DNA from: Sipunculus nudus
Taxonomy: Eukaryota; Annelida; Sipuncula; Golfingiida; Sipunculidae
DNA: 64,000 bases
Assembly: GCA_026874595.1 (NCBI GenBank)
Contig: CM049311.1
Coordinates: 76,644,453 to 76,708,452, forward strand
Reading direction: 5' to 3'
The notes beneath the pieces are model-generated. The model was not told the origin of the DNA and searched no databases. It saw only the letters and a list, made by a program, of their open reading frames with translations. A program made the translations under genes and the position numbers. Of this stretch, positions 13,629 to 63,100 are shown in pieces. Each line of letters starts with the position of its first letter. Within the stretch, counting starts at the first letter, position 1.

Positions 13629-15195
13629 GTCTGGAGATACTATGGTTTAGGCACGGTCGCGCCGCAGAGATTTCTTTTGGACACAATAACTCAAAAAATA
13701 TTTCACGGATCTTTACCAAACTTGGTATATATATAGATATGGGTGAGAGGACAAGGCCTATTTAAAATGAGGTCATGACCTCAACTAGGAGAGTGACCTT
13801 GACCTTGAATAGGTTCAATTTTGGGGAAAATCACACCAATTCTTAAATATCTCAAGAAAACTTGCATGGATTGATCCCAAAATCAAGTTGATCGAAGATC
13901 ATGGATAGGGTTGTCATGTTCCAGTAACTGGTGGCGCCACCTATTATTCTTTACTTGTTTTCATGCCGTTTAATATCCCCAAAATTGCTACTTGACAGTA
14001 CTGTGAGCATTATAAGTCAAAAACTAATGGACAGATTTCTTTCATATTATGCATATACATGGATATGGGTTATGGGATGATGTTATTTTAAATTGGGGTC
14101 ATGACCTTTCCTATGAGAGTGGCCTTGACCTTGAATATTGCCATATATGGTAAAAATCACACAAAATCATTAATATCTCAATAAGGGATGCATGCATTGG
14201 TCCAAAAATCAACATGTTCGAAGATCTTGGATTGAAATGTCATGTACCGGAAACAGGTGGCGCCACCTGTTATTCTTTTACTTGTTTTGTGCCGTTTAAT
14301 ACCCCATCATTGCCACTTAACAGTACATTTATAACCTGTGAGCATTATAAGTCAAAAACTAATGGACAGATTTCTTTCATATTATGCATATACATAGACA
14401 TGGGTTATAGGATGATGTATATATAAATTGGGGTCATGACCTTTCCTAGTAGAGTGGCCTTGACCTTGAATATTGCCATATATGGTGAAAATTACACAAA
14501 ATCATTAATATCTAAATAAGGGATGCATGCATTGGTCCAAAAATCAACATGTTCGAAGATCTTGGAAAGTGTTGTCATGTACCGGAAACAGGTGGCGCCA
14601 CCTGTTATTCTTTTACTTGTTTTGTGCCGTTTAATACCCCATCATTGCCATTTATCAGTACTGTGAGCATTATAAGTCAAAAACTAATGGACAAATTTCT
14701 TTCATATTATGCATATACATGGATATGGGTTATAGGATAATGTTTATTTGAATAGGGGTCATGACCTTTCCAATGAGTGGCCTTGACCTTGAATATTGCC
14801 ATATATGGTGAAAATCACACAAAATCATTAATTTCTCAATAATGGATGCATGCATTGGTCCAAAAATCAACTTGAAGAAGATCTTGGATAGTGTTGTCAT
14901 GTACGGGAAACAGGTGGTACCACCTGTTATTCTTTTACTTGTTTTCCTGCCGTTTAATACCCCATCATTGCCATTTAACAGTATTGTGAGCATTATAAGT
15001 CAAAAACTAATGGACAGATTTCTTGCATATACATAGACATGGGTTAGGGGATGATGTATATTGAAATTTGGATCATGACCTTTTCTATGAGAATGACCTT
15101 TTCTATGAGTGTGGTCTGATATTAATTGTTGCTGAAGATGGGGGGCCTTTTCTTAAAGGGGGGGGGGGGGATTAATTGTCTGGGGATACTATGGC
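13629..15195. repeat. Tandem array of about 325-335-bp units, about 4 copies, bounded by gtctggRgatactatgg
   Basis: The phrase gagcattataagtcaaaaac recurs at about 14005, 14340, 14665 and 14988, giving a period of 323-335 bp. Each unit contains tcatgacctttcc, ccttgaccttgaatattgcc, gatgcatgcattggtcc and the palindrome ggtggcgccacc or a variant (13930, 14256, 14591; ggtggtaccacc near 14915). A 17-bp direct repeat, gtctggRgatactatgg, lies at both ends (about 13629 and 15178). Confidence 0.88.
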
Positions 15196-16079
15196 ACCTG
15201 CGGTGCCAAGAAATATCTAGTTTGCTCATGTGTCAGCTCTTGATATGCTCAGCTGTAATCTTTAAACTCAGCTTGTAGTGCCCTCCATGGAGAACAGAGC
15301 CCATCAATTTCATATGTCGTCATTTTTCAGTGACATAAAGAATGTAAAATTTTTTGTAGTTAAGACTGAGCCTAGGAGCTGGACATGATTACTGTCTTTG
15401 GGGACAATTAACGCGATTTGTATTTTATTTGTGGTAGAGGTTATACCCAAGTAATATGTTATCTCTGTGACCCCCGGATGCAGTAATTTGCCGGGCTATC
15501 CCTGAGTCTATGCCAAGTTTTCTCACCCCTGGTGCCCTCTCTTGGGTTTAGAGAATAAATAAAGGAAGATGATTTCTTTTAACCTTGAGCCCTGACAGTA
15601 CCCACAGTAGAGCAATTTGTATACAAACTGTCAGCAGCAAAACCTACTTCATAGCACTGAATCAATATTGTGGGATCCTTCTGTGGTGATCCTTATTCTA
15701 AGTGGCAGACTCCACCATAAAATGTAATATAAGGAAAAAGATTTGTTTTGAAATGGTTTCTTTTAGCTTTACCATGATCACAGTATTTTTATAAGAGTTA
15801 AGTCCTGAACTTGTTTGCTCTGTTTGAAAATTCCCCTTATAACATTTGAAACTTTTTAAATATTTAATTATGGATGACTTTAAGGCTAGATTAAAGTGCC
15901 CAGATACCTTTGTAGTTGGGCCATCAGTGGATGATTGATATTCTTGCAGCTGGTGTATATACTTGTGAATAATCTGTTCATGGTTCTCCTCTATTTGCCA
16001 TGCATCAAACTTTTTTGTGTGCAAGGGATTACTTGGATCTCTGGTCATCAATGTGAACATGTTTTGTGAACTTACACAG

Positions 16080-16220
16080 GGATGCCGTGCACCATTGGTT
16101 GTGAAGTTTGCTGACACACAGAAAGAGAAGGAGCTGAAGAAACTGCAACAGGCCAATGCTAATCTTATGTCGGCCAGTGGCATGTCAGGGATTGGGTCTC
16201 TCACACCTCAGTATATTGCT
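16080..16220 (+). CDS. CELF1/2: CELF exon B: end of RRM2 and start of linker (141 nt)
   Basis: Acceptor cttacacag (AG 16078-16079), donor gct|gtatgt at 16221, phase 0 at both ends, 47 codons. It begins GCRAPLVVKFADTQKEKELK, the last beta strand of RRM2 followed by the charged helix typical of CELF proteins. It then runs KLQQANANLMSASGMSG and ends LTPQYIA, matching the conserved 'GPQYLA'-like motif at the linker start. The preceding intron is 7.1 kb. The first codon joins directly to GAG of exon A, restoring the family signature TMEGC. Confidence 0.95.
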
Positions 16221-31146: not shown

Positions 31147-31188
31147 GATAATAATAATAATAATAGTAATAATAATAATAATAATAAA
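31147..31188. repeat. (AAT)n microsatellite
   Basis: ATA/AAT trinucleotide run with one G interruption (aatagtaat). Confidence 0.95.
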
Positions 31189-36080: not shown

Positions 36081-38820
36081 TTTTTAGCGAACCTGTGAGC
36101 TTATGCGATGGTGTGGCGTCGTCCGTCGTCTGTACGTTAACCTATACTATCTTGAAAACGGCAAGAATTAGCATCATCAAATTTTATGCATAAAATTAGT
36201 CATCTAAAAAATTCTATCGGATTTTGCTTATTTTTTGGCTAACTGCATTTTCTTAGATTTTATAGGGAAAAAGCTAAAAAAGCTTAAAAAATCTTCTTCT
36301 CCGAATCTGTTCAGCCAAATTGTCCAATATTTTACAGAAATGATTTCTGGAACAATCTCTCTGAAGTTTGTTCAAATGGTTTAAGTTCGGTGATTTTTGG
36401 CCGAATTACAGGAAGTTGAACTTAAGTCATCTGTCTAAAAAAGCATACTAAAATTACAATCTCAGAAATGGCTTGAGCTATCATCACCAAATTTTATGCC
36501 AATGTTGGTCACATGAGTCATATCTGAAATTGAGGTATTGGTGGCGCCACCTGCATCGGCCTTTTTTGTACGGGGGTCATCAGTGCCCGTATCAAACTGA
36601 AGTCTACAAATAACTTCTTCTCTGAAACGATATAGCCAAATTGTTTAATATGGCACAGAAATGATCCTAGGGTAGTGCTTTCTGAAGTTTGTTCAAATGG
36701 TCTCAGTTCAGTGACTTTTGGCTAAGTTATGGGAAGCTGAATTTAGTCATATGACATAGCAGCCAATTTTAGCTAAGTGGCTAAAAAAATCTTCTTCTCA
36801 AAAACCACTGGGCCAAATTCTTAAATCTCACACATTAATTATCCTTAGATGTTGATAATTCAAGTTTGTTCAAATGGTCTCAGTTCAGTGACTTTTGGCT
36901 AAGTTATGGGAAGCTGAATTTAGTCATATGCCGTAACAGCCCATTTTAGCTAAGTGGCTACAAAAATCTTCTTCTCAAAAACCACTGGGCAAAATTTTTA
37001 AATCTCACACATTAATTATTCTTAGATGTTGATAATTCAAGTTTGTTCAAATGGTCTCAGTTCAGTGACTTTTGGCTGAGTTATGGGAAGCTGAATTTAG
37101 TCATATGCCGTAACAGCCCATTTTAGCTAAGTGGCTACAAAAATCTTCTTCTCAAAAACCACTGGGCCAAATTCTTAAATCTCACTTGTTAATTATCCTT
37201 AGATGTTGATTATTCAAGTTTGTTCAAATGGTTTTGGTTCAATGATTTTTGGCTGAATTATGGGAAGCTGAACTTTGCCATTTTGCTGTATTTTCCCATA
37301 TGAGTTATAAACCCACAAAACGTTTTTTGACTGATGATACTGAGGCTAGTTTGTTTAATATTTTGCAAGAATAATTCCCTGAATAATTCTTATAATAATT
37401 GTCTTTTATGGTTCCAAAGAATGAATTTTGGCTGATTTATAAAGATTGAATTGAGTCATTTTACCATATATGTTAGCTGTGTGAAGCAGATACATCTAGC
37501 ATAGCACCAGTTAATCAGCAACAATTACATCATGCCTCTAGACATTTAGATTTCAGGTTATCTATGGAAAATATTGACAAGAATGTTTTTTAAAAGCTTT
37601 TAAAAATGTAGATTTATGATATTAGATATCATCTGTACACTAACTCATAATTTCTCAGGAATAGCAGGAGCTACCATCCCAAATTTTATGCAGTTATCTG
37701 TCACAAAATAAATGTTGATGGATTCAGCTTATTTTTGCTATCTGTATTTACTTAGATTTTACAGGGGAAAATCTGAAAAAAACTTTAAAAGTCTTATTCT
37801 TCTAAACAGTCAGAAATTTACAGAAATGATCCCAGAGGCGAGCCCTCTCAAGTTTGTTCAAATGGTTTGTGTTTGATAAATTTTAGCAGAGTTACATAAC
37901 AGGCCAAGATTGTGTATGTTTCTTGAATAGGTTGAGAAACTGCCAACTTGTTTCAGATTTGGCAACAGATCAAGAGTTCATTCAATGCAGCCAAATATAG
38001 GTCAACAGTTCAATCAGTGCAGCCAAGCACAAGGCATGTGATCACCTCATGGGTGTCATGTAAGCACCTCATGGGCAGCATGTGATCATCTCATTGGTAG
38101 CATGTGATCACATCATGAGTATCATGTGATCACCACATGGGTGTCATGCCCCTCAGGGCTGCATATGGAGCCAATCTGTGAGCTTATGCAATTGTGTGGC
38201 TACTATTTCAGATTTGGCAACAGGCAAAAGGTCAGTCTGGATTTATTTATAGCTTTGGCAGACTGCCAACTGTGTCAGATTATGCAACAGGTCAAGAATT
38301 CACTCAGTGCAGCCAGGTACAGGTCAGAAGTTCACTCAGTGCAGTAGCCTGAGCCAGTAATTTGTCACAGTACACTCGGGGCAACAGCCTTTCTCACCTA
38401 AGCCTGGTCAGCCCCATGCATCAGACTCAAGGTAAGTTTGATGTATTGGCCTGTTATTCTGACCTGTCTATGTGTCTTTAATGGCTTTCTCGTTCACAAG
38501 ACAGGTGTCGCCATCTGCAATGACTTTTGCAAAGTGTATGTGCCTGCTTAATTCTACGGAGGAATTTGATATATCAGCCTGAAATTGGGCATATTTATAC
38601 ATGTCAAATAGCTTTGTTGTATACAAGACTGGTGGTGCCACCTACAATAATTTTTGTGTTGTGTGCACCCATGCGAGAATTTCAGCAGTGATGTTTGTGT
38701 ATTGTTTCTTGTTCAGATGTTAAGTACTTGCATTGTTCATATATATGAAAAGTAGTGGTTCAGCATTGAAGCGTTATACCTGGTGTATATCCATATGCAC
38801 AGGTTCGCATTAGGCCTGTA
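36081..38820. repeat. Dispersed repeat family R1, copy 1 (about 2.75 kb)
   Basis: Starts tttttagcgaacctgtgagc and ends gcacaggttcgcattaggcc followed by tgtaggccttgttt. The 11-mer GCGAACCTGTG (36087-36097) is repeated in inverted form as CACAGGTTCGC (38798-38808), so the two ends carry short inverted repeats. The same ends and order are seen in copies at 43758, 53037 and (left end) 60200. No long ORF. It contains a 177-bp tandem array (36660-37275). Class not assigned. Confidence 0.85.
36660..37275. repeat. 177-bp tandem repeat inside family R1
   Basis: The phrase caaatggtctcagttcagtg and its variants recur at 36701, 36878, 37055 and (diverged) 37232: exactly 177 bp apart each time. Units also share tatgggaagctgaatttagt, cccattttagctaagtgg and ccactgggc.aaatt.tta. 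Copies 2 and 3 are nearly identical. The 53-kb and 60-kb family members carry fewer units. Confidence 0.92.
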
Positions 38821-39842
38821 GGCCTTGTTTCATTAACAGAACTTCCAAAAATAAAGTCACATTTCTTAGTATTTAAAAGAAAATATTAGAAGTGGCACTC
38901 CTTAGGATACACTTGGCATCACTGACAGTTCAAGAAGACGCATTAAGGTAACATTGATAACATTAAGGTAGCTGAACTGTGTAAGTACATGTACTGGTAG
39001 TATTAGGAACTTCAAGTAAGGTGGGAGATTAAGGTGACAGTTTATAAATTAGATATCAATTAGTAAGCTATAAATTTAGATAATATCAAAACTATAGCAG
39101 CACTATATAAACAGGTGACACTGCTAGCAAATTACTTCATGCATTTTCCACCCAAATATTTAAATCATAAACATGTAAAATGGCTAATGAACTATGCTTT
39201 TGTAATAACTCTATAATACATTTACAGTAAAAGGGCAATAAAAGTTTTAAAAAACTAGTGTATTTTGAGGTTTCCTGGATAGATCTTTCCTGCTTTGCCA
39301 TTAACAGAAATCCATTTGGACACCAAGAGGCATTTTCATTCAGTTTTATATGCATGAAGCAGTACTAAATGTTTTGAGGGAGATTAGATCCAGACAAATA
39401 ACTGTACAAAGTTAAAATAGTGTCATTTTCGTGAGTCTAGCTTTTATAAAGCTTTATGCTTTATTTTAGCCCTTACTGTAAACCCTTTGGAAGAATATTA
39501 ATTGAAAACAGATAGTAGATTTCAACAATTCACCATTAAACTGTGCAAAATGAAACAAAAATGCTGTCTTACTGATTATACTAAACAAATGACACTCCAT
39601 AAAACATGTTCTGTTCCTTAGTTATTATTGTATTCCATTGTATTCAGAGTGTTTTCAAGACAAAAAAGCACCAGTCTTTGTCAAGACTTATTGAATGTTG
39701 AAACACAGTCAGACGCTCTCCATTTGTTGATTAGAAAAAGGATAACATTGCAATTGGTTTGCTTTGTTAAAAGGTTTTGTGTGCTTGCTCATGCTAGATT
39801 ACAGTAGATGTCTGTCATTCAGACGGCATGTGCTGCTTAATA

Positions 39843-39845
<3 letters not shown>

Positions 39846-39897: not shown

Positions 39898-39900
<3 letters not shown>

Positions 39901-42494: not shown

Positions 42495-43757
42495 TAATAG
42501 GAGAGAAGTATGTTTTCACAGATTTATGTTAATGTGATACTTAGGTATTTTGTATGATGTTGAGATTCTTTTTGGCATTACCTTATTTTCCCAACACAGA
42601 AATACCTTTTTTGCAAGCTTTTGCAAATTTTGTTTAAGTATTGACAAATTGCAGTTCTAGACCATTGGTGGAACAGACTACATACACAGTTAAGTGTACT
42701 AACAATGATGATCTCTAAGTTCATAGTGAATCAACTAGTGTTTTCTCTTTCCACTGTCCTTCTTTTTGTCTTTTCTTGAACATGGGTCTCCTGTTCTAGT
42801 CTTATCCCATAGAATAGTGAAAGACAGTGTTCTTCTCTTGTCCCTACAGTCTCTGGATGTATGGTAGAATTTGTATAGAGAAATGGTGATCATTATTTTG
42901 TTTTTGTATTACAATGGTCACACCAGTATGGTGCCCTGTGAATATTGTTGTTTATTATTTAAACTTTTTTTCTGGGAATTTCTTTGATTATTCGGTATAT
43001 ATAATTATAAAAGGTTCTCTTTAACTAACTGCATGTTGAGAGAGGTTTTGATGTCATTTTTAGGCTGAACAACAGAAGTGACAGATTTCAATCCATGCCT
43101 TTGGGTTTATCATTAATTTAACTTGCCAAATATTTAAGACCAGTTGACTTGCCAATCAGGCATAATATTTCATAACCCCAAGAAGCTATTTACAGAGTGT
43201 AAGATCTCTGCGTAGGTGTCATGATTTCATATTGACCACTGTTTATAGCTCTCATGAGACAGTCACAATTTGTTTTATCTTTGCACATATATCAGCTGAT
43301 CTGCTTAGGCCATTTTCCAATATTTTACATGAAACATTATTCAGCAGTGCATCATTCACAAAGGATGAAAATCCTTTAAAATATTCCAATGAGTTGCTTG
43401 AATTCAGCTGCTTTTGAAAATTTCCCTTGAGAAGACCTTTAACCCTTTATTGTTTATATTTGTTTTAGATTTATGACGAAGTCTGAACTCTTTATATTTA
43501 CATTACTGCTGATTTCTTTCTCAGCTTTTAATGTTTCTTGACCAAAATTTTAACAATTCTTATGTGTTAGCTTTAGATTAGTGGAAACTTTAGAACTGAA
43601 AATAAATATGCAATAACTTTTTTCTTCTTTTTATATCTCTGAATCTAGTTACAAGAGGAAGGTCTAGTTGTCCATGTCAGATGCAATTGTAAGCAGTAGA
43701 TGTACTTATTATTTAATGACCTCCTATAGGATGTTTTATTTTATCCTGTGAAAAATT

Positions 43758-46135
43758 TTTAGCCAACCTGTGAGCTAATGCGATGGTGTTGCATCGTCCG
43801 TCGGCCTTTATCTGTACATTAACCCATACTTTTTTTTAAAACAGCAACAGTTAGCATTACCAAATTTTATGCAAACAATTATTCATCTAGAAAAACTATT
43901 GGATTTTGCTTATTATTCAGCTAACTGCATTTTCTAAGATTTTATAAGGAAAAAATTAAAACTAGAATACAGGTAGTTGTCAAGCAACTACGTGTATCCG
44001 CCAAAATCAGAGTGGAATGAGTAAAGTGAGGCATGGATTGAGTGGCAAGGGAAATAGAGTGAGGTGTGTTGCATATTAGCATTGATGTCTGCAGCCGAAA
44101 TGTGTATGTAGGTTGCGCCACCTACCAAAAATTCCAGAAACCTGTCCAAGTTGTATACATATGCAAAATTTTAGGCAGAAAAGTCAAATCACTACATGTA
44201 TATGAGTGATTTTATCCCACAGCAGACAAACAGAAGGACTTGTGCAAAAGTGGTCGCAGGTGGCACCACCAATTTTGTGTATGATTAAGAGCTATGTGAG
44301 ATCTATACACATGCAAAATTTCAGGGGATATGTCCAACCAGTCCTGAGATATAAGCCTGAATGTCTGCAGTGTTAACATAAATGTAGGTGGCACCACCTG
44401 CCAAAAAATTGAGAAAGCTAACCAAGATGTATAAACACGCAAAATTTTAGGCAGATAAGTCAAACCACTACAGAGATATGAGTGATTTTAGCCCACGGCA
44501 GACAAACAGACGGACAGTGTAAGTGCCTGCTTATTTCTACAGAGGAATTTGGTATATCAGCCTGAAATTGGGCATATTTATACATATCAGATAGCTTTGT
44601 TGTATACAAGACTGGTTGTGCCACCTACAATAATTGTATCCGCCAAAAAGAAGTTTTGTGGATACTATGTTTTTGACTGGGTTCCGCTGCCGCCGGTGTT
44701 TCAAGAGAACTCCTCAGAGATTACTGGATGGATTTTTCCGAAACTTACACCAATTATCGGGTCACATGTTAACTGGTGCCAAACCAATTGGCGTTGACCT
44801 TTGACCTTTCCTCTCTGCCCAGCGTCCATTTGTGCGTCTGTTTCCACACATAAACCCACATATCTCAGAAACCGTTTAACCCATCAGGAAAAAAAATTTT
44901 GTACAAATGTAGCCCTTGGATAGCTTTATAACATACACAAAAAATGGTGGCGCCACCTGCAACCATCTGTTTGTTTGCCTTGGGTTAAAATCACTCATGT
45001 CTCCGCAGTGGTTTGACTAATTCACCTGAAATTCAGCATGCGTCTACATCCTGGATAGCCTTTATGACAGGCGCCACCTACATTCACGTTTACGCTGCAG
45101 ACATCCAAGCTCGTCTCTCGAGAACCATTTGACTGATTGGGCCAAAATTTTGCATGTGTATAGATCTCACATAGCTCTTTATCATACGCAAAACTGGTAG
45201 CGCTACCTGCAGCCATTTTTGCACAGCATCCGTCTGTTCATCTGCCTTTGGTTAAAATCACTCATTTTTCTGCAGTGGAGATAAAATCTCTCATATCTTG
45301 GCAGTGGTTTGACATATCTGCCCAAAATTGTGCAGGTTTATACATCCTGGACAGCTCTCTTGAATTTATGACAGGTGGCGCCACCTACATTCTAGTTTAC
45401 GCTTCAGACATCCAAGCTCATATCTCGGGAACTGTTTGAGTGATTGGGCCAAAGTCTTGCATGTGTATAGATCTCACATAGCTGTTATCATACGCAAAAC
45501 TGGTGACGCCACCTGCAGCCATTTTTGCACATCATTCTTCTGTTTGTCTGCCATGGTCAAAAATCACTCGTATACATGTAGTGGTTTGAATTATCTGCCT
45601 TAAATTTTGCATATGTATAAATTTTGGACAGGTTTCAGGATTTTGTGGTAGGTGGCGCAACCTACATACGCCTTTCGGCTGCAGACATCCACGCTAATAG
45701 GCAACACTTCACTCTATTTCCCTTTGCCACTCAATCCATTCCTCACTTCACCCATTCCACTCTGATTTTGGCGGATACACGTAGTCGCTTGTCAACTACC
45801 TGTAATCTAGTTTTCGCACAGTATATGCCCCTGCTTATTTCTGAGGAGGGGTTTGACATATTAGTCTGAAATTGGGCATATGTATATTTCTCTGATAGAT
45901 TTGTTGTATACAAGATTGTTGGAGCCAGCTACAATCATTTTTGTGTAGTGTGCACCCATGCCAGAATTTCAGCAGTGATGTTTGTGTAATTGTTTCTTGT
46001 TCAAAATGTTAGTACTTGCATTGTTCATATACATGTTACAAATGTACTTAAAAAGTAATGGGCCAGCATGGAAGCATTATACCTGGTGTATATGTGACTG
46101 CACAGGTTCGCATTAGGCCTGTAGGCCTTGTTTGT
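43758..46135. repeat. Dispersed repeat family R1, copy 2, interrupted by a foldback element
   Basis: Left end tttttagccaacctgtgagc (one change from copy 1), then ttaacccatac and the tgcattttctaagattttat phrase, broken at about 43956. The right end resumes at about 45817 with gcacagtatatgcccctgct and finishes gcacaggttcgcattaggcc. The middle of R1 is missing, so the foldback replaced or rearranged it rather than inserting cleanly. Confidence 0.8.
43957..45816. mobile_element. Foldback element with about 560-bp inverted arms
   Basis: The outer left end aaaactagaatacaggtagt is inverted at the right end (ctacctgtaatctagtttt). The first about 170 bp on each side are strongly complementary: gtatccgccaaaatcagagt on the left versus actctgattttggcggatac on the right. 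Complementarity continues inward to about 44512 on the left and 45255 on the right, through several palindrome-bearing units. The loop (44513-45254) holds a unit starting gtatccgccaaaaagaag. Each terminus itself contains a small hairpin, gtagttgtcaagcaactac. No coding sequence recognised. Confidence 0.85.
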
Positions 46136-47033
46136 TAATAAATCTACTTTGAGATTGTCTAATGGATAACTGTTATTTTAAGTTCATGTGTGCCACACCC
46201 TGTTCTGATGTACTATATTTTCTAGACTATATTTTGTCACCTATTACTTGAAGAATTCTTTCTTAGGGCAGATAACACCCTTATTTTAAGTTTATAACCA
46301 CTGTATAAGGATTGTATAGGACACATGGATGTTCCTCATGGTATATAAACTAGCTATGATGGTTTTACAGCAAGTTACTGTTATCATCAGTCTATCATCA
46401 TTAGTCAGCATATTAACAAGGCCTGTGCTAGAGACACTTGTTTTCTAAGTATCTGTGTTGAATCTGGCACAATTATTTTAATCAGGTTTTAGTCCATCAT
46501 TCCCCTTCATATCAAGGTGTTTTAGATCTGTTGTTCAGCCAAAGTTATAAAAAGGAATTTGGTTGTTGTGTTTTGTAATTTTGATTTGAACATCAAATAG
46601 TGCATTTTTTGTTGTTGCTTATTTTGAAATTTCAGAATTATCAAGAAAATTCCAAATGATATTTGGATTTTCTAATTGAAAAATGTATTTACTTGCTTAT
46701 TTTGTTCAAGCCATACTTCTTTTAAACAAATAAGTTATTCCTTATTTTTGAATGTTGGCGCTTAGAATTTGTTTAAATACTGTCTATTGGCTGTATCAGT
46801 TACAACAAGTTTACTGTATAATCAGTTTATTTATTTGGATGTATACATAATTTTTTTTTCTTTTTTTTTTAATATGTAAAGCCAATTATATTATATGAAA
46901 GACTTGAATATACAATAGATTCTGAAAATTTGATGAGTGGATCTCCTCCTTGTCTACAGCACAGTTAAGAGTGTGCAGCAGTCAAATATGAGGTATTTGT
47001 ATACAGAATATTACCAATGTCATCTTGTTGCAG

Positions 47034-47249: not shown

Positions 47250-49719
47250 GTAAAGTTCATTTTCTCATCTCTGATTGTTTGCAGATTGTGTTTGCTGCCT
47301 GATTGTTCCTACTGACTGCACCCTGGGTTTCTGTCGTTGCTGCTGCAAGTGTTTTCCACTCTAATCCCTCTGATAAACAACAGAATTTCAGACCACTGTG
47401 TCATAAAAGGCTCTTTGGTTAACATTCAACTTAATATCATGATTATTAAAATCCGTCTAAGAGAGTTTAACATTTTACAGATAAGAATTCAAACATTTTG
47501 AAAAGTGTTTGTCTAATAAATTTGTAAATGCATTCTTAAAGTGTGAACCCTGTGAAATGTTTAGAAACACTCTTATTCTCTCTCATATAAAAATGTAACA
47601 ATGTCTGAGAAGAAAAATCAGATGAATTTCCGATAATCAAGCAGGCAATCTTGAAAACAGAACACAAGACTCACAGTAAATCAGAAGTGAAAGAAAAATT
47701 TCAGTTCGTCCTAAAAAAGGACTCTAAAACTTTCAGCAAATGCAGCCACAATGCATGGTACAGAAATAAGAATCTAGGGTAGCAAATGTTTTATTACAGT
47801 CCAAGCTATTGTTTATCCCACTCATTTCCTTCCTTCAAGTTTTATTTTCAAGAACCTTTAAAAACACTTAGGTCTGGAGGTCTGTTGGCAATTCAAATTA
47901 GCATGCTGGAGAGTGTTTTGGAAGCATCTGGTTTCATTTCTTTTTTTCACTTAAATCTCTTGAAAAACAAAAGCAAAATGCAAAGGCATTAATATTTTTT
48001 TGGAAAGGGAGAAAGTTTTTAAAGAAGCATGAAACTGATATTCTGGTGAATTCTCTCCAGTGCACTTAGAGTAAAGTTGTTCCATTCTTATTTTATGTGA
48101 TATATCCTGTGAACTGCCTGTTAAAGTATTTACATGAAAGCAAGGTGTACCCATCACCATTTTGCTGCTCATGTAATCAAAAGGACAGACAAACAATTTT
48201 TTTTATGTTTAATAGTGCTGTGTATACATTTTAATGAAAGTTTTCCACCATTGTGTGGCATTCCTTTATTCTTGATTAGCAATAAGGAATATTTTTGGTA
48301 AAGATAAAGTTTAATGCATCATTGCGAGAGTGTCCTTTTTAGGTTGGGTTTATTGGGGTTGTGGATCATTTAACTGTGGAATGTAATGGAACAGCTTTGT
48401 GACATTGTTAATGGTTCTTGTTTGTTCTAGTTGTAGGTGAAGTATCAATGTGTGATTGTTGGCGTATGCTCCAGTTGTTTCCATTGTTTGCTTACAATAA
48501 TGCACATACTGTATCATTTCCATAAGCCCTTTGTTAAGGACAGAAAATAAATTGTGTACCAAAAGTACTCTTTTATTCCTCTTTCCTTAGCTTCAGAGGT
48601 GAATGTGATTTTTTTCTCTCATCTAGTAAGAATGATTGTGGAAAATATGAAATTTTGGAATTATGCATTTAAAACTTAAGTATAATATCAGCATAATACA
48701 TGATATTTAGTGCTAGACCTGTAACAGATGGCTAATGGATAAATTTGATTCCAACCAGACAGTTGATGAAGATGATAATATGATTTGTGTTCTTTTGTCT
48801 AATCAGTAATTTTGAACACAGTCTTATTATGTAAATATATGGGAAATAACTGAATAATCCAACTGAAGTATATTTGATTGGACATCAGCTGTCTGGTTTA
48901 CTGCTGGAAAATTAAGGAACATTTATTTTGTGGATTGTGATTTATTTATGATCGGGACCAGGTGTGTGTTTGAATAAATTAAGGAAGGCAAAGAAGCCAT
49001 CTTGAGGACTGTACTGTTTAAGTGTCTGTGATAATTCATTAGATATTTGGAAAACCACAGTTACTCTGTAACTCTTGGATAATGTTTAAAATTTATATGA
49101 GTGATTTCATATTACTAACTTGCACCTTATGGTTTTGTAATAGCAAACATGACAGTTAAGATCAAATCTGTTCAAATTTATGAAATATGACCCATTGACC
49201 AATTTTATTTGTAAACTTTACAGTTTACAACTTAAACAGAAGTTATATAGTAGCCATGAAAGGTAATGACTTTGGGTATTGAAAGAAATGGTTGTATGTC
49301 CTCACAATGAAACTTTGCCATTCTAAGTTGTATAAAAATGAATAATTAATGAAGGCATCACCTGATCTCATATCTCACCCATAAACATCTGCTAATGACT
49401 TGTTGTGCTCAATTTGGAGAGTCAGTCCCAAAAAGGGATCAAATGATTATAGATTATCATGACAGTTTGAATTATCCAGAAAGTCTTAGATTAAAATGTA
49501 ACAGACTTGTACTCTAATGCACAACACCACAGGTTGCACTTCAAAATAAGTGCACTAATACTTACTCACAATGCACAACATTCTTTTCATTATGTACAAT
49601 AACTATGATAACTTGTGTTGTTTTTGTTCCAACACCTGTGCTAATAGATGGTTAAATTATTTCTTCAAATGATATTTTTTTTTTTTTTATTGTTAGCTCT
49701 GCTGACTGAAAGTCATCTG

Positions 49720-51743
49720 AGCTATAGCGATCACTCTTTGTCCGTCGTCCGTCTGTCCGTCTGTCCGTCCGTTAACCAGGCACAAATCGTAACCGCTGGA
49801 CCTAGAACCTTGTAACTTGGGATTCTGAGAGGTCCATGAAAAATCTCCTTGGAAACCAGAAATTAGGTCTCTGTTACCCATATCCTTCGAGCTATATAGC
49901 CCCAAAGTACCCCCCAGAAAAGTCAAAAATTTCATACAAAAACTTCAATATCTCATTAACTACTTGACTGATGGTCATGATTTTTGGCATACATATTGAT
50001 CATGAGATGTTACATCACTTCCTGCAGACTGGTGGCGCCACCTGTATTTTTTTATTTTTTACGAATTTTTTTCTCTATTTTTGAGACCTTTAAAAATGTG
50101 AACATCTGTTAACAAGGCACAAATCATAAAGACTGGACTTAGAATCTTAATTCTTGACACACTGAGAGGTCCATGAAAAATCTCCGTGGACACCAGAAAT
50201 TAGGTCTCTGTTACCCATATCCTTTGAGCTATGGGGCCCCAAAGTACCCCCCAGAATAGTAAAAAATTTCATACAAAAACTTCAATATCTCAATAACTAC
50301 ATCACTGATGGTCTTCATTTTTGGCATACATATTGATCATGAGATGTTCGATCAGTTCCTGCAGACTGGTGGCGCCACCTGTACTGTTTGATTTTTTACG
50401 ATTTTTTCCTCTATTTTTGAGACCTTTGAGGATGCTGTCATCTGTTAGCGTGGCACAAATCGTAACGACTGGACCTAGAATCTTCATTTTCGACACACTG
50501 AGAGACCTATGAAAAGTCTCCATGGAAACCAGAAATTAGGTCTCTGTTACCCATATCCTTCGAGCTATGGGGCCCAAAACTACCCCCGAGAAAAGTCAAA
50601 AATTTCATACAAAAACTTCAATATCTCATTAACTACATCACTGATGGTCATGATTTTCGACATACATATTGATCATGAGATGTTTCATCAGTTTGTGCAG
50701 ACTGGTGGCGCCACCTGTATTTTTCAATGTTCACGAATAGTTTTCTCCATTTTTGAGACCTTTAAGGATGTAGTTATCTGTCAACAGGGTACAAATCGTA
50801 ACGACTGGACCTAGAATCTTCGTTCTTGACACACAGGGAGACCCATGATAAGTCTCCATGGAAACCTGAAATTTGGTCTCTGTTACCCATATCCTTTGAG
50901 CTATGGCACTCCAAAGTACAGCTCAGAATAATGGAAAATTTGATACAAAAGCTAAAGTATCTGAACAACTAATGCAGAGATAACCATAAATGTTTGCATG
51001 GATATTGATCATGGAGTGTTTCGTAAGTTTCTGCAGACTGGTGGCACCACCTGTATTTGTTCAGTTTTTTTTTTACGAAATTTTTCTGTATTTTTGAGAC
51101 CTTTAAAGATATGAACATCTGTTAACAGGGCACAAATCATAAAAACTGGACCAAGAATCTTCATTCTTGACACACAGGGAGACCCATGAAAAGTCTCCAT
51201 GGAAACTTGAAATTAGGTCTCTGTTACCCATATCCTTTAAGCTGTATGGGTCATAAATACCCCCCCAGAATAATGGAAAATTTGATACAAAAACTGCAGT
51301 ATTTCAATAACTACAACACTGATGGTCATGATTTTCGGCATACATATTGATCATGAGCTGTTCCATCAGTTTCTGCAGACTGGGTGTGCCACCTCTATTT
51401 TTTTTTCAAATTTTTACGAATTTTTTTCTTTTTTTTGAGACCTTTAAAGATGTGGTTATCTGTCAACAGGGTACAAATTGCAACAACTGGACCTAGAATC
51501 TTCATTCTTGTCATGCAAGGAGGCCCATGAAAGGTGCCTGTGGAAACTTGAAATTAGGTCTCTGTTACCCATATCCTTCAAGCTATAGGACTCCGAAGTA
51601 TCCCTCAGAATAATGGACAATTTGATACAAAAACTGAAGTATCTGAACAACTAATGCAGAGATCACCATGATTTTTTGCATGGATATTTACCATTAAGTG
51701 TTTTTATTAGTTTCTGCAGACTGGTGGAGCCACCTGTATTTTT
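49720..51743. repeat. Tandem array, unit about 336-341 bp, six copies
   Basis: The phrase ggtctctgttacccatatcc recurs at 49866, 50203, 50539, 50875, 51216 and 51557, giving periods of 337, 336, 336, 341 and 341. Each unit has ggacctagaatctt.att, gatggtcatgattttcggca, catattgatcatgag.tgtt and ctgcagactggtggcgccac or a variant. The first unit is preceded by a gtccgtctgtccgtctgtcc run. ORFs on both strands are repeat shadows; one carries the recurrent translated string of the palindrome. Confidence 0.93.
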
Positions 51744-52797
51744 GTATCCGCCAAAACGGCGGCATTCGTTTCCAGAGAGCTCCTCGGAGACTAATGGACC
51801 GATTTTTCCCAAACTTACACCTATTATCGGGTCACATGTGAACTGGTGCCTAACCAATTTGCATTGACCTCTGACCTTTCCTCTCTATCCAGTGTCCATT
51901 TGTGGGTCTGTTTCCACTCAAAAACCCTCATATCTCGGGAACCGTTTGACCGATCAGGAAATAAAATTGATACAAATGTAGCCCTTGGATTGCTTTATAA
52001 CATACACAAAAAATGGTGGCGCCACCTGTAACCATGTTTGCACAGTGTCCATCTGTTCATCTGCCTTGGGTTAAAATCACTCATATCTCTGCAGTGCATT
52101 GACTAATTCACCTGAAATTTGTCATGTGTATACATCCAGGATAGCTTTCTTGATTTTATGACAGGTGGCGCCACCTACGTTCACGTTCACGCTGATGACA
52201 TCCAAGCTTATATCTTGGGAACCGTTTGACCGATCAGGAAATAAAATTTATACAAATGTAGCCCTTTGATAGCTCTGTAACATACACAAAAAATGGTGGC
52301 GCCACCTGTAACAATGTTTGCACAGCGTCTGTCTGATAGTCTGCCGTGGCCTAAAATTACTCATTTCTCTGTAGTGGTTCGACATAACTGCCTAAAATTT
52401 TGCAGGTTTATACATCATGGACAGCTTTCTTGATTTTATGACAGGTGGCGCCACCTACATTCTAGTTAACGCTGGACACATCCAAGCTCATCCAAGCAGG
52501 GGTTACCTGCAAAGATTTTTGCACAGTGTTTGTCTGTTTGTCTGCCATGGGCAAAAATCGCTCATATACATGGAGTGGTTTGACTTTTCTGCCTAAAATT
52601 TTGCAGGTGTATACAACTTGGACAGCTTTCTGGATTTGTGGTAGGTGGCACAACCTACATACACATTTAGGCTGCAGACATCCATGCTAATATGCAACAT
52701 ACCTCACTCTATTTCCCCTTGCCACTCAATCCATGCCTCACTATCCGATTTTGGCAGATACATGTAGTCACTTGTCGGTTACCCGTATTCTAGTTTT
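51744..52797. repeat. Foldback-related segment: loop plus right arm only, inserted in the 337-bp array
   Basis: Collinear with 44637-45816 (loop and right arm of the foldback): starts gtatccgccaaaacggcggc and ends gtcggttacccgtattctag. The array sequence resumes after it (tttctctatttttgagata), so it interrupts an array unit. The left inverted arm and outermost left tip are missing. Palindromes ggtggcgccacc lie at 52015, 52164, 52295 and 52444, spaced 131-149 bp. Confidence 0.82.
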
Positions 52798-53036
52798 AAA
52801 AGTTTACACATTTTTCTCTATTTTTGAGATATATAAATACAGACTAAATCTTGGCCTGTTGGTTAATCTGTTTGATGCTTCAGTTGAATGGGTATATACT
52901 ACCATTCTGATGATAAAATTTCCTTTTGCGATTCTCTTCCCAGTCAGCTGAGCGTCATGACCCATGGGTCACTTGTTGTGGTTATGTGATCAATCCCCAT
53001 TCAGTTAGACTCATTAGATAAAGATTGTGATTCCTG

Positions 53037-55472
53037 TTTTTAGCGAACCTGTGAGCGATGGTGCGGCCGCGTCCCTCAAATGTCGTGCCTCTTCTGTAGG
53101 TTAACCATAGTTATCTCAAAAATGGCAGGAGCTAGCATTACCAAATTTTTTTGCAAATAACCAGATATCCAAAAAACTATATCGGATTTTGTTTATTTTT
53201 TTTCTAACTGCATTTTCTTGGATTTTACAGGGAAAAAGCTCAAAAACTTTTAAAATCTTCTCCTCTGAAACTGTCCAGCCAAATTGTCCAATATTTCACA
53301 GAAATGATCCATGGAAAAATCTCTCTCAAATTTGTTCAGATGGTTCCATTTCGGAGATTTTTGGCCGAGTAACAGGAGGTTGAACTTTGTCATCTGTCCA
53401 AAAAAAGCATATTAAAATTTCAATCTCAGAAACGGCTGGAGGTATCATCACCAAATTTTATGCAAATGTTGGTCACATAGGTCATTTCTGAAATTGAGGT
53501 ATTGGTGGCGCCACCTGCATCGGCCTTATTTGTACGGGGTCATTAGTGCCTGTATCACACTGAGGGCTACAAAAAACTTCTTCTCTTAAACCATATGGCC
53601 AAAATGTTTAATATCGCACAGAAATGATCCTAGGGTAGTGCTTTCTCAAGTTTGTTCAAATGGTCTCTTTTCAGTGACTTTTGGCTAAGTTATGGGCAGC
53701 TGAATTTAGTCATATGCCACAACAGCCCATTTTAGCTCAGTGGCTACAAAGATCTTCTTCTCAAAAACAACTGGGCAAAATTCTTAAATCTCACACATTA
53801 AAATTATCCTCAGATGTTGAAAATTCAAGTTTGTTCAAATGGTTTTGGTTCAGTGCTTTTTGGCTGAGTTACGGGAAGCTGAACTTAGCCAGTTTGCTGT
53901 ATCTTCCAATATGAGTTACAAACTTGCGAAAAGTTTTTTGACTGATGCCACTGAAGCCATTTTGTTATATATATTACAAGAATAATCCCTACAATAATTC
54001 TATAATAATTGTCATTAATGGTTCCACATGAATGATTTTTGGCTGAATTATTGAGATTGAATTGAGTCATTTTACCATATATGTTAGCTGTGTGATGCTA
54101 TTACATCTAGCCTGGCACCAGTTTATCAGCATCTATTACATCATGCCACTGGACATTTAGATTTCAGGTTATCTTTGGTTAATATTGACAAGAAAGTTTT
54201 TTTAAAAGCTTTTAAAACATTTAGATTTATGATTCAAGTTATTCATCATACCAGGCAATGTTACAATCTTGGATATTCAACTCTCTGTGGCTATATAAAG
54301 ACAACTGTACGTGGATTATATATTATTGGTATCCCTACTCAACTTAATTCAAGAATTTGCCATCAATGATATATATCTGTATTTTAATTTTGCATTCAGT
54401 ACGATCCGCAATAATTTTACATATATTCCTGATTTCTTTTGTAAAAAAGTCAGCTGAAAAGCATTTGTATTGGGAAAATAAATTTCAAAGTTATTTCAAG
54501 TAGGGACCACATTTGTGTACAGATGGCAGCAGATTGCCAGTGCCTTGATGTTGGCCATTAGCCAAGATGATGTCAGCTCTATAAATAGTTTTGCCACAGA
54601 GCCAGGATTGGAAGAAGTGCAGCGAGTTATAGATCAAGAGTTCACTCAGTGCAGTAGCTGCATTCTATTTATAGCTTTGGCAGATTGCTCACTGCATCAT
54701 ATTTGGCACCAAAGTTCAACCTGAATCTATTTATAGCTTTGGCAGACTGCCAACTGTGTCAGATTATGCAACAGGTCAAGAGTTCACTCAGTGCAGCCAG
54801 GTACAGGTCAAAATTTCACTCAGTCTAGCCAGGTGCAGGTCAAGAGTTCACTCAGTGCAGTAGCTTGACACAGCAATTTGTCACAGGTCACTCGGGGGCA
54901 ACTGCCTTACTCACCTAAGCCTTGTCAGCCCAGTGCATCAAACTCTGGGGAAGTTTGATGTATTGGACTGATACCTGTCTATGTGTCTTTGATGGTATTC
55001 TCATTTACAAGACAGGTAGTGCCACCTACAGTGACTTTTGCATGGTATGCGCCTGCTTATTTCTACAGAGGAATTTGATACATCAGCCTAAAATTGGGTA
55101 TGTTTATACATATCGGGTAGCTTTATCGTGTACAAGACTGGTGGCGCCACCTATAATAATTTTTGCACAGTGTATGTCCATGCTTATTTAGCCGGAGGGG
55201 TTAGACATATCGGTCTGACATTGGGCATTTGTAATATCTCTTGGTTGTATACCAGACTGGTGGTGCCAGCTACAATCATTTTTGTGTTGTGTGCACCCAT
55301 GCCAGAATTTCAGCAGTGATGTTTGTGTAATTGTTTCTTGTTCAAAATGTTTAGAACTTGCGTTGTTCATATACATGTTACACATTTTCTTGAAAAGTAA
55401 TGGTCAAGCATTGAAGCATTATACCTGGTGTAATCCCATTGCACAGGTTTGCATTAGGCCTGTAGGCCTTGT
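53037..55472. repeat. Dispersed repeat family R1, copy 3 (about 2.4 kb)
   Basis: Starts tttttagcgaacctgtgagc and ends gcacaggtttgcattaggcc then tgtaggccttgttta. Internal order matches copy 1 (palindrome at 53504, ttagctcagtggctacaaa, acatttagatttcaggttat, agttcactcagtgcag units near 54640-54860, palindrome at 55140). It has fewer 177-bp units, which accounts for part of the length difference. Confidence 0.85.
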
Positions 55473-56733
55473 TTATTTCTTTAACATATTTTTGTGAAAT
55501 GGCACACATTAGATCTATATTGGCACCATGAAATTTCTTAAGTAGCATTGTTTACTTTAAACCTTTGATACAGCAGTGTATGGGTGAGATTTGGTGATGT
55601 TCTTCATCATTATCTATTTGTTTTCTTCTGTATAATGTAAGTTGGTGGAAAGCAAGGTCTCTGTGCCAACTTAAATGAACTTCTCCTTGTGGCTTCTTTG
55701 CACTAAAAAAATTCATAAGAGAAGTTCCTGTTTAATAACCCTATCTGTGCCTTATTCTTGCATATGCAATTCAGTGTGGTTTTGTTGGCTACACTTGTTT
55801 TTAAATAAATAAACGATGAAAAATAGTGTTCTAGTTAAGATAATACTGGAGAAGAGATTCATTCATGGTGCACAGAGACCAGCTTTTGGCCCCCTCTAAT
55901 GAACTGTGTTGTGTGTATAATATTATAATAAAATAATAATGCCGAGATGTTATCTCACATTACACTGATCACTGCACATCCTGACAGCATTAGAAATTAT
56001 ATAGCTGTGTAATTGTTAACATGTTAGTGTACACTCTTCCCTCAGCTGTCTTACATCCAAACTCTGTCTCTGCATAGCTTTGCCCAGGTGTGTGTCCTTG
56101 TTTACCCAATGCACTGTGATGTACATACATCGTTTACACTGGCTGAGGAGATAATGTTAAATGTTAAGTGATAAATGATAAATAAGTTAAAAGTCACAGT
56201 AAACCCATACAGAAAGGCATTTTCACTATAATTTAATATAATAAAAGATATCTCAAACTGAGAGAATTAATACCTGAGTTTTATGAACCAGAAAGATAAC
56301 ATGCAGTGTTTGTTTTAGTGCATAAAATTGCATGTAATCATACATCAGATTTTAAATAAGAATCTTCCCCTGGTATAAGCATTGCTGTGACATATATTTA
56401 ATGATTAACTGTAACAGCTGATAATGAAATTCATCCTTTGTAACAGCCCATGACCTTTTAAACAGATCTAGCCTTCTTTATTCCTTGGCCTAATAATAGT
56501 GTAAGAACATGTTTGTTTTATCAAGAGTGTCCACTACTGAAGTCATTTTATTTGTACTCATGGTCTGTCACATGTTATAGCACTACTCAGGCACAATCAC
56601 TGATTAATTTGCAGTGTTGATCTACACCTGGGCAGTTGTTGAGAGTAGCTGTAGTGATAACTGATGTCTCGTGATGTCTCTGTTGGAATATTAGTGATGG
56701 CAGTGCTCAGTTTTATATTTGTTTTCTTTTAAG

Positions 56734-59796: not shown

Positions 59797-59813
59797 TGCT
59801 CACACACAGCAAG
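59797..59813 (+). other. Start of 3' UTR, ending at a strong splice donor
   Basis: After the stop the sequence reads tgctcacacacagcaag and then gtgagt at 59814, a consensus-quality donor. This predicts a 3' UTR intron whose acceptor lies beyond a recognisable point, perhaps outside the window. With only 17 nt between stop and junction, the normal stop would not trigger junction-dependent decay under the usual 50-55 nt rule. No polyadenylation site can be assigned. Confidence 0.65.
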
Positions 59814-60199
59814 GTGAGTTTGTCCACTCCTTGGGAGATATCTTTCAAATAACTATTGTGTCTGTAGTATTTTGCCCCCAGTTCAAACCCTGTTTTGATA
59901 TGACATTAGCAGACCTTTTTTTTGATATGCATGGCATCTGATTAACAGTTGTTTATTAGGGAATGAGATGGTTTCTGCATTAAGACATCAAATTTAACTG
60001 AATGGTAAACATGATCAAATGTAATGACACAGCCTCTGTGATTAGAGGGAATATTAAAAACAGCATACTGTAGATGTTTCAGAACTTGCTCTCAAGAAAT
60101 ACTTTTTACTTTCCACAAAGAATCCTGTAGATTCACATTTACATTATGTTAAACTTTCTGCACTGTCGTGTTTCACTTGATACGTGGACAGACCTGACT

Positions 60200-63100
60200 T
60201 TTTAGCGAACCTGTGAGCTTATGCGATGGTGTGGCGTCGTCCGGCGTCTGTACGTTAACCCATACTATCTTGAATACGGCAAGAGTAGGCATCACTTAAA
60301 TTTATGCAAAAGATTAGTCATCTAAAAACCTCCATCGGATTTTGCTTATTTTTTTGCTAACTGCATTTTCTTAGATTTTATAGGAAAAAAGCTAAAAAAG
60401 CTTTAAAAATCTTCTCCGAAACTGTTCAGCCAAATTGTCCAATGTTTCACAGAAATGATCCCTGGAACAATCTCTCTCAAGTTTGTTCGAATGGTTTAAG
60501 TTCGGTGATTTTTGGCCGAGTTACAGCTAGTTCAACTTAGTCATCTGTCCAAAAAAGCATATTAAAATTACAATCTTAGAAACGGCTGGAGCTATCATCA
60601 TCAAATTTTATGCGAATATTTGTCACATTAGTCATATCTGTAAATTGAGTTATTGGTGGCGCCACCTGCATCGGTCTTTTTTGTACAGGGGTCATCAGTG
60701 CCCGTATCATACTGACAGCTACAAAAAACTTCTTCTCTGAAACCATATGGTCAAATTCTTCAATATCGCACAGAAATGATCTTAGAGTAGTCCTTTCTGA
60801 AGTTTATTCAAATGGTCTCAGTTCAGTGACTCTTGGCTGAGTTATGGGAAGCTGAATTTAGTGATATGCCATAACAGCCCATTTTAGCTCAGTGGCTACA
60901 AAGATCTGCTTCTAAAAAAACACTGGGCCAAATTCTTAAATCTCACACATTAATTATCCTTAGATGTTGATAATTCAAGTTTGTTCAAATGGTTTTGGTT
61001 CGGTGAATTTGGGCTGAGTTATGGGAAGCTTAACTTAGCCATTTTGCTTTATTTTCCCATTTGAGTTATAAACCTGCAAAACATTTTTTGACTGACGCCA
61101 CTGAGGCCAATTTGTTTAATATTTTACAAGAATAATCCCCTGAATAATTCTTATAATAATTGTCTTTTATGGTTCCAAAGAATGAATTTTGGCTGAATTA
61201 TAAATATTGAATCGAGTCATTTTACCATATATGTTAGCTGTGTGAAGCAGATACATCTAGCCTGGAACCAGTTTATCAGCATCAGTTGCATCATGCTTCC
61301 AGACATTTAGATTTCAGGTTATCTATGGTTAATATTGACAAGAATGTCTTCTAAAAAACTTTAAAAAAATGTAGATTTATGATTTTAGATATTGCTCATG
61401 CCAGGCAATGTTTACAATCAGAGGTATATGTTAACCCATACTATTTCAAAATCGACTAGAGCTAGCAACATGCAATTTTATGCAAAAAAATTAGCCATCT
61501 AGAAAAATCTTCAATTTTCAGATTTTATTGAGAAAAAGCTAAAAAAAAAATTAAAAATCTTCTCCTCCGAAATGGTCAAGCCAATTTGTTCAATATTTCA
61601 CAGAAATAATCTTTTCTACCATCTCTTTCAAGTTTGTTCAAATGGTTCAAGTTCAATGAATTTTGGCCAAATTACAGAAAGTTGAACCTAGTCATCTGTC
61701 CAAAAAAAACATACTAAAATGACAATCTCCAAAATGGCCAGAGCTATCATCACCAAATTTTATGCCAGTGTTGGTCACATGAGTCATATATGAAATTCAG
61801 GTATTGGTGGCACCACCTGCATTGACCTTTTCTTTGTACGGGGGTCATTGGTCATCTGTATATTAACCCATAATTTCTCAGGAATAGCAGGAGCTACGAT
61901 CCCCAGATTTTATGAAATAATCTGTCTCATATCAAATGTTGAGGGATTCAGCTTGTTTTTTTATGCCCCCGCCACAAAGTGGCCGGGGCATATAGTTTTA
62001 CCCATGCCCGTCCTTCCGTCATTCCATCATTCAGAAATCAAACAGTTGTACGGACTTTTTTTTGCAATGCCTGCAGATATTGGCCTGATTTTTGGTGTGT
62101 AGGTAGATAATGACCAGATATAGATCGAGTTCTCGTTTCGTCCCAGGTGACCTATTTTTGACCATTTAACGGCTCCTTTACTTAGAAAATTTCATGAAAA
62201 ATAGAAATTTTCATGACAAATACACATGTACGGATTTTTTTTCGCAGTGCCTGCAGATATTGGCCTGATTTTTGGTGTGTGGACAGATAATGACCAGTTA
62301 CAGATCGAGTTCGCGTTTCGTCATGGTTGACCTACTTTTGATTGTTTTACGGCTCCTAAACATAGAAAATTGCATGAAAAATATAAATTTTCATGACAAA
62401 TGTACATGTACAGCCGTTTTTAGCCCTCAGCTCATAGGCTGATGGGCTATTGTCTTCACGCTATTGTCTTCTGTCCATCCGTCTTGCCGTCCGTCTGTCC
62501 GTCCGTCTGTCTGTCCGACTGACGTTTGTCCGTCGGCGTCTGTTAACTTTTACCTTGTGAGCAGGATTTCTCTAAAACTATTCATGGTTGGAATTTTATT
62601 TCATCAGTGAAGATGTTTTTCGATAAAATCTCAGTCAAGTTCGAAGATGGGTGACCTTGACCCATTTTTCTACATTTTAGAGCTGATTATAGAAAAATAC
62701 TCAGAAGCTTATATCTCGGGAACCATTGTTTGGATTTTCACAAAACTTACTATGGTCATTGGGACTGATGGTCTGTACGTGCTGCACAATTTTGGTGGAG
62801 CCAACTGCAATTTCTGATTTTTTAATCAATTTTTATCGGATTTTTCAATTTTGGCCTTGTGAGCGGGATATCTCTTAAGAATTCACCGTTGGAATTTTAT
62901 TTCATCAGTGAAGATGTATATCAACAAAATCTTCGTCAAGTGCAAAGATGGGTGACCTTGACCTATTTTTCTTTGTTTTAGAGCTGATTATACAAAAACA
63001 CTCAGAAGCTTATATCTCAGGAACCATTGTGTGGATTTTCACAAAACTTACTATGATCATTTGGAATGATGGTCTGTGCGTGCTGCACAATTTTGGTGGC

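Follow-up and report, generated by a model that had tools for sequence, protein, structure and literature searches.

Non-autonomous Helentron-like elements of the HINE type, also called pearl-type, are described in PMC4067079 as having subterminal inverted repeats (subTIRs), a 3′ palindrome, a T-rich target and optional tandem repeats. According to the relevant sections of PMC7492417, Cg_HINE of Crassostrea gigas consists of a 5′ subTIR with an inverted repeat, a GTCC-type microsatellite, short arrays of 138-181-bp monomers, a 3′ subTIR and a palindrome, and its otherwise divergent monomers have two conserved segments in common. A recombination hotspot has been proposed, in the part of PMC5139131 dealing with repeat junctions, for the junction palindrome of DTC84 and for the junctions of phBglII400. 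Divergent HINE monomers with conserved segments, and core repeats that each hold a palindrome, are already on record. Why satellite-like monomers in such elements retain short conserved boxes amid otherwise changing sequence has, to our knowledge, not been explained. Here, we analyzed a 64-kb stretch of DNA of Sipunculus nudus (the window) together with the genome of the same species (1,426,538,692 bp in 153 contigs). The window is rich in repeats containing the 12-bp palindrome GGTGGCGCCACC. We consider it fairly probable that an old core-repeat monomer of about 130-170 bp has this palindrome, extended by one base to GGTGGCGCCACC(T), as its conserved core box and that the box acts in cis for the HINE/pearl-type elements carrying it.

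Abundance of the palindrome

The sequence-only reading of the window had reported 16 exact copies of GGTGGCGCCACC and many variants beside them. Our recount recovered all 16, each where it had been placed, and found 35 sites with at most two mismatches, whereas 100 dinucleotide shuffles averaged 0.37. Among perfect 12-bp palindromes in the window, (AT)n aside, GGTGGCGCCACC is the most frequent with its 16 copies, the runner-up having 3. The genome contains 111,729 exact copies, i.e. one per 12.8 kb, whereas the control pattern (the palindrome read backwards) has 14 matches and base composition alone predicts about 7. Since the window is AT-rich and has a CpG observed/expected ratio of 0.30 (0.53 in a 200-kb sample of contig C1), the frequency of this GC-rich, CpG-containing 12-mer is not compositional. 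The palindrome is preserved beyond its flanks, across families and in CpG-poor surroundings, which makes it reasonable to suppose, as suggested earlier, that the sites have a function in common, for instance as a signal for transposition or as the target of a protein.

A core-repeat module shared by most families

Since a palindrome reads the same on either strand, the orientation of each copy was first assigned from its flanking sequence. With an ungapped flank model, 31 of 35 copies scored positive; those at 44946, 51723 and 52644 were slightly negative and were retained, while the one at 2924 (-45) was dropped. After masking of the palindrome with N, the 34 oriented copies were made into a profile, which re-found all 34 and added four decayed copies (3561, 44982, 45824 and 51283) and one partial copy (3865). 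The module thus described is degenerate and about 130-170 bp long. In an example at 52348..52500 (+ strand), an ATCTC-like stretch lies about 78 bp upstream and is followed by ACAGGTGGCGCCACCTACA at 52441-52459.

To assess the relationship between families, each was held out in turn: the palindrome-masked profile was trained on the other families, and a match (E <= 1e-3) had to cover the copy's own upstream flank. Recovery was 19 of 38 copies (21 with a laxer overlap rule), namely 3/4 in family F1, 1/4 in F3, 11/14 in F4 and 4/7 in F5. At the same threshold, none of the six copies of a 336-bp array (best E-value 0.02) and none of the three copies of a 301-bp array were recovered. Because the masked profiles retrieved neither array, common descent of these two with the other families is suggested only by the alignment, together with two features, the palindrome and the ATCTC-like stretch located some 78 bp upstream. 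The palindrome had originally been assigned to several different repeat families. Its presence across families holds, but an independent origin in unrelated repeats is not supported, most of the families sharing one core-repeat module.

The association extends to the genome. We sampled 250 kb, composed of 20 systematic 10-kb stretches of contig C1 (200 kb) and five stretches from contigs C2-C6. All 27 exact palindromes in this sample are inside modules found by the masked profile (23/23 in C1 and 4/4 in C2-C6, all four in one stretch). In the C1 sample, sites with one mismatch number 22 inside modules and 2 outside, and those with two mismatches 4 inside and 13 outside; five dinucleotide shuffles of these 200 kb gave no match to the module profile. 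The 99 gaps among the first 100 genome sites include 14 of 128-131 bp, 17 of 147-150 bp, 4 of 276-280 bp and 7 of 335-337 bp. Modules are found in both orientations at the sample loci, and at one locus (L025, 7843-7876) two one-sided box variants are inverted and 22 bp apart, outside any module. The window profile had no match in loci L001-L004 and one in L005 (E-value 0.41), away from the motif. Searches for relatives beyond the genome of S. nudus, covering viral contigs, one genome-contig scan, plasmids and phages, returned chance matches or none.

Constraint on the box in propagating lineages

In the window and the sample together, the masked profile produced 112 matches, of which 102 cover the place of the palindrome and 101 have full flanks. 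The numbers of copies with zero to four mismatches (best match within 8 bp) are 43, 33, 15, 8 and 3, respectively. All 101 copies have T at position +12, whereas at -1 T (68 copies) and A (31 copies) both occur; the conserved unit is therefore the 13-bp GGTGG(CG)CCACCT and not a longer palindrome.

Changes were mapped by parsimony on trees built from the flanks only, taking the ten non-CpG columns of the palindrome as the box and 132 columns as the flanks. For all 101 copies, the box has 34 terminal and 4 internal changes, compared with 719 and 795 in the flanks (Fisher p 1.5e-7). The same contrast is seen for the 63 sample copies, all found with the palindrome masked (24/1 vs 625/498, p 1.5e-5), and for the largest cluster (11/1 vs 236/252, p 0.003). 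Expressed per column, terminal changes amount to 3.4 in the box and 5.45 in the flanks, and internal changes to 0.4 and 6.0. The box is constrained in propagating lineages and erodes in individual copies, which is the pattern of a signal needed during multiplication of the element and useless afterwards. Its beneficiary is probably the jumping DNA and not the individual site in the host. Positions 0 to +12 each have 0 or 1 internal change, except for the central CpG with 6 and 4. Of the 46 changes at this CpG, 37 are C>T or G>A, so that any constraint on these two bases may be hidden by decay and cannot be judged. Slow single columns are also scattered upstream, including T-C-T at -78 to -76.

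A second estimate comes from divergence within clusters. Seven clusters of three or more comprise 98 copies (three singletons were dropped), and non-CpG divergence from the cluster consensus is 48/1001 (4.8%) in the box against 2692/13060 (20.6%) in the flanks; the flank figure of the largest cluster is inflated because this cluster mixes subfamilies. The resulting ratio is 0.23 (95% 0.15-0.88). In three clusters (6, 3 and 3 copies) the consensus is already without the CpG, and two of these show no constraint.

Several observations weigh against a constrained cis-acting box. When the comparison is restricted to the window, slower change of the box than of its surroundings is not significant (mean difference -0.058, bootstrap -0.129 to 0.022); with equal weights its divergence is 0.104 against 0.147 for the median window, rank 20 of 131 windows. 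In four of 11 subfamilies (F4b, F5v1, F5v3 and F6) box divergence is at or above that of the flanks. Taken singly, no cluster but the largest shows the branch contrast: it is not significant in cluster1 (8/3 vs 169/122, p 0.53), and the three other clusters tested are too small, with 0-4 box changes. The internal changes at the central CpG are almost flank-like. The profile was trained on palindrome-bearing window copies, which makes module families without the box harder to see and would inflate the apparent constraint, and the box positions in the cluster comparison are best matches within 8 bp. Finally, the invariant T at +12 and the lack of covariation (see below) do not fit a strictly symmetric site.

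One alternative is that there is no function at all and that descent from one monomer, combined with recent spread, array homogenisation and motif picking, creates an appearance of conservation. Most families are indeed of common descent, terminal changes in the box approach those of the flanks, so that copies decay near-neutrally, the window-only test is not significant, and symmetric covariation is absent both in the window and genome-wide. We nevertheless regard this explanation as improbable. The flanks of the very same copies have diverged internally while the non-CpG columns of the box have hardly changed, homogenisation would have kept the flanks too, and the sample copies were collected with the palindrome masked. 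The sequence-only reading had held that descent from one element, neutral decay and a lack of symmetric excess would together speak against function. Symmetric excess is lacking, descent is largely common and the decay of copies is nearly neutral, but in the propagating lineages neutrality fails, the constraint there being strong.

Elements carrying the module

Element ends were read by eye. In the window, the modules make up the central tandem repeats of elements that are non-autonomous, show Helentron/HINE (pearl-like) anatomy and differ in their ends. HINE-like element A (49690..52979, + strand) has a 5′ subTIR at 49696-49708, a microsatellite at 49739-49769, a 3′ subTIR at 52941-52953 and a 3′ palindrome, GACCCATGGGTC, at 52959-52970. 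Palindromes of its 336-bp array are located at 50031, 50368, 50704, 51040, 51382 and 51723. A copy of another element, X (51744..52797, + strand; palindromes at 52015, 52164, 52295, 52444 and 52644), is nested in A. Locus L024 (about 5975-9366) contains a copy of A that is 95% alike over 49690-52491; since this copy has both ends of A and includes the nested X, the composite has spread as one unit with the ends of A.

The other full copy of X (44636..45814, + strand) sits in a T-run. Its 5′ end has GTATCCGCCAAAA and a complementary inverted repeat, and its 3′ end TTTTGGCGGATAC, a hairpin and CTAGTTTT. Its palindromes are at 44946, 45067 (with a 3-bp loss), 45196 (a symmetric variant), 45374, 45502 and 45651. 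The second copy of element B (43756..46136, + strand) is interrupted by this copy and, on the minus strand, by a partial one (43958-44513). What had been described as a foldback element carrying the palindrome is this copy of B together with the two insertions, X and the inverted partial X. The first copy of HINE-like B (36081..38830, + strand) comprises R1 repeats (palindrome at 36540) and an F5 part (38504 and 38631). Its 5′ end has TTTTTAGCGAACCTGTGAGC and a GTCC sequence, and its 3′ end GCACAGGTTCGC, AGGCCTgtAGGCCT and CTTGTTT. A 22-bp tandem repeat with TGATCA occupies 38035-38148, just upstream of the F5 part. In the third copy (53037..55477, + strand) the palindromes are at 53504 (R1) and at 55015, 55140 and 55259 (F5), and partial relatives of B at 60199..61848 (+ strand) have palindromes at 60655 and 61806.

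HINE-like element C (13611..15223, + strand) holds the 335-bp array F1, with exact palindromes at 13930..13941, 14256 and 14591 and a variant at 14913. Its left end has a GTATC...GATAC inverted repeat, and its right end the hairpin TGGCACCtgcGGTGCCA followed by ...CTAGTTT. These boundaries recur in other loci, the left one in L007, L009 and L015 and the right one in L017. Element Y (62418..63798, + strand), with ends that are partly resolved, contains the 301-bp array (sites at 62794 and 63095) and has a decayed relative at 3649; the palindrome is already degenerate in this family. All complete A, B, C, X and Y elements of the window are on the + strand, the minus strand holding only the partial X. 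Apart from the repeats, the window has a tandem duplication at 8702-8952 of two 127-bp copies (93%) that includes an RRM exon with CELF-like sequence; the two copies could be alternative exons of a host gene.

Subterminal inverted repeats are found near both ends of A (GCTCTGCTGACTG and CAGTCAGCTGAGC, one mismatch), X (GTATCCGCCAAAA and TTTTGGCGGATAC) and B (GCGAACCTGTG and GCACAGGTTCGC) and are less clear in C. A 3′ palindrome or stem-loop is present in A (GACCCATGGGTC), B (AGGCCTgtAGGCCT), X (GTAGTTG...CAACTAC) and C (TGGCACCtgcGGTGCCA). T-runs are found at the ends of A, B and X, and X is located in T-runs of other repeats. A microsatellite followed by the array occurs in A (at 49739, GTCC type) and Y (at 62470), GTCCGTC is found at 36121 near the start of B, and none was noted in X or C. 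In anatomy, as far as tested, A, B and X belong to the HINE/pearl kind. The genome has 143 matches to Helitron_like_N (150 of 195 candidates scored), seven of them in open frames over 2,200 aa with no stops inside the match. Autonomous partners thus plausibly exist in the genome.

Symmetry and hairpin formation

Both symmetric variants pointed out earlier are present, at 14913 (GGTGGTACCACC) and 45196 (GGTAGCGCTACC). The palindromic covariation that they seemed to indicate, however, did not materialize. Complementary mirrored changes in the window number 2, compared with a null mean of 2.74 (p 0.86). Outside the central pair of the 101 copies there is 1 against 0.71 expected (p 0.52), and mirrored changes of any kind are slightly over expectation (4 vs 1.38, p 0.04). 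Genome-wide, GGTAGCGCCACC occurs 4,607 times on both strands and GATGGCGCCACC 9,525 times. The mirrored double variant GGTAGCGCTACC was counted 128 times against 47.5 expected, a ratio of 2.70 (one mirrored pair counted), and the asymmetric control double GGTAGCGCCATC 485 times against 196, a ratio of 2.47, so that the two behave alike. These independence expectations assume equal rates in both arms, and the ratio of ratios would reach 2.3 if the arms differed 4-fold oppositely; in the 101 copies, the 3/8 change is equally frequent in both arms (3 and 3). The shared excess of double variants probably reflects copy age, and complementary mirrored changes are not specially favoured.

Symmetry ends at 12 bp in 68/101 copies, where T is opposite T. 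As DNA hairpins, the 12-bp core has -1.3 kcal/mol and one ACT...TGC form -2.5, compared with -3.2 to -10.0 kcal/mol for the terminal hairpins of A, B, X and C. Copies of the ACA...TGT form (A at -1, 31/101) reach -6.5 kcal/mol and thereby match the terminal hairpins. In the would-be GCGC loop, the outer two bases are without internal change. A hairpin or self-cleaving RNA in array transcripts, one of the functions originally envisaged, might be expected from a palindromic sequence in tandem arrays, and the ACA...UGU form does fold at -10.3 kcal/mol as RNA. This explanation is nonetheless very hard to sustain: T opposite T leaves a 4-bp stem in most copies (-4.7 kcal/mol as RNA for one such form), covariation is absent genome-wide, constraint acts on two of the four bases that would form the loop, and Rfam gave no family at the gathering threshold in the window, nor any match at E <= 1 over 43700-55500.

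Alternatively, the palindrome could be a hotspot of recombination or template switching that extrudes, or stalls replication of a single-stranded transposition intermediate, and thereby alters array length. There is precedent in the DTC84 palindrome near the repeat junction and in phBglII400, for which the account of breakpoints in PMC5139131 places 13 of 16 at a 12-bp palindrome. The stability of the ACA...TGT copies agrees with this idea, as do two of three independent insertion points of X: those at 44636 and 51744 are in different host repeats, each at a distance of 9-10 bp on the 3′ side of a palindrome. On closer inspection, the insertions are weak evidence: the A-nested copy is common to L024 and counts as one event, and the third insertion (L014 6704, minus strand) is not beside a palindrome. 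Moreover, the X insertions are in T-runs, which is enough to explain their places. The hairpin is weak wherever position -1 is T, covariation is lacking, and the 336-bp array, with X left out, stops (as judged by eye) about 45 bp past its last palindrome. On balance, we find a hotspot unlikely, although it retains some appeal. Because both arms and one extra base are conserved, covariation is absent and the hairpin is weak in two thirds of copies, the evidence points instead to a putative protein site in double-stranded DNA, made up of a better and a poorer half-site.

Possible role of the box

In the scenario that we favour, a cis-acting core box, the monomer is carried as short tandem arrays in several non-autonomous Helentron-like (HINE/pearl-type) families with different ends, and the box would have spread with these carriers to more than 110,000 exact sites. 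Acting in cis, it may provide the element with a recognition site in double-stranded DNA that is composed of two half-sites, GGTGG and CCACC, around the CpG. Its recognition by a host factor, or by the Rep/helicase system of the element itself, would aid replication, recombination or expression of the element or of its arrays. More specifically, and only tentatively, the 13-bp element-encoded box may have been shared through core-repeat exchange among different Helentron families and may be the docking place of the Rep machinery, or else of an architectural or transcription factor of the host, thereby seeding over 100,000 potential sites.

A purely host-centred variant, in which the elements exploit or incidentally disperse binding of a host architectural or transcription factor such as a CTCF-like protein, has some attractions. 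The other strand of the box reads TRYAGGTGGCGCC, the two half-sites overlap head to head, and the bases beyond the palindrome (T, R, Y and A at +12 to +15) agree partly with a CTCF site. Outside modules, the core TGGCGCCA exceeds expectation 6-fold (6 vs 0.96 in 243 kb), but several other palindromes are over-represented there too. The CTCF consensus has CC[AG] upstream, and sites of CTCF and E2F need their central bases. Compared by sequence, the minus strand of the box has the CTCF core AGGTGGCGC, but the box lacks the upstream CC[AG] and its central bases change freely. Oligos for two published CTCF sites do include AGGTGGCGC (the guide oligo given in PMC6344568 and the binding-assay oligo in PMC6925871), and use of CTCF within spiralians is reported for one squid in the pertinent part of PMC10658181. 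However, individual copies decay almost like their flanks, so that most sites are not selected in the host, and we hold a host factor site to be a rather remote prospect. Should a host factor bind the box, regulatory sites would be dispersed on a large scale by these elements.

Comparison with known repeats

With the box defined to 13 bp and counted genome-wide, constraint in amplifying lineages combined with decay of copies is what would be expected of a cis signal of the element. Related elements are known from bivalves. The GGTGGCGCCACC box was not found in the literature searched (running text on palindromes, satellites and HINEs), and it may be identical to a known box. The 12-mer itself matched an unrelated subject only, and the matches listed for TGGCGCCACC concern other subjects, including bacterial tandem repeats. 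In the parts of the literature on relatives that were consulted, we did not meet a count of such size for one box or a comparable contrast between internal and terminal changes.

Cg_HINE and the Cg170/HindIII-type repeats are, like the elements described here, non-autonomous Helentrons with such ends and arrays, as characterized in the sections of PMC7492417 cited above; units in S. nudus are also 276-337 bp long, and the comparison is one of anatomy. The BIV160/Cg170 monomer (about 160-170 bp) has two conserved motifs; the modules described here have two conserved stretches, TCT at -78 to -76 and the 13-bp box. DINE-1/HINE elements share the subTIRs, the 3′ palindrome, the optional tandem repeats and apparently the T-rich target, while the portion of PMC4067079 describing them mentions no shared palindrome in the central repeats. 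The phBglII400 monomer of Ruditapes philippinarum resembles ours in its 12-bp palindrome, at which 13/16 of its array breakpoints fall, but phBglII400 is a classical satellite, and the likeness is to its description in PMC5139131. DTC84 of Donax trunculus, known from the description in the same source, is HINE-like and has a conserved palindrome near the core-repeat junction, as in S. nudus; what distinguishes the present case is that one exact palindrome is common to several element families with different ends.

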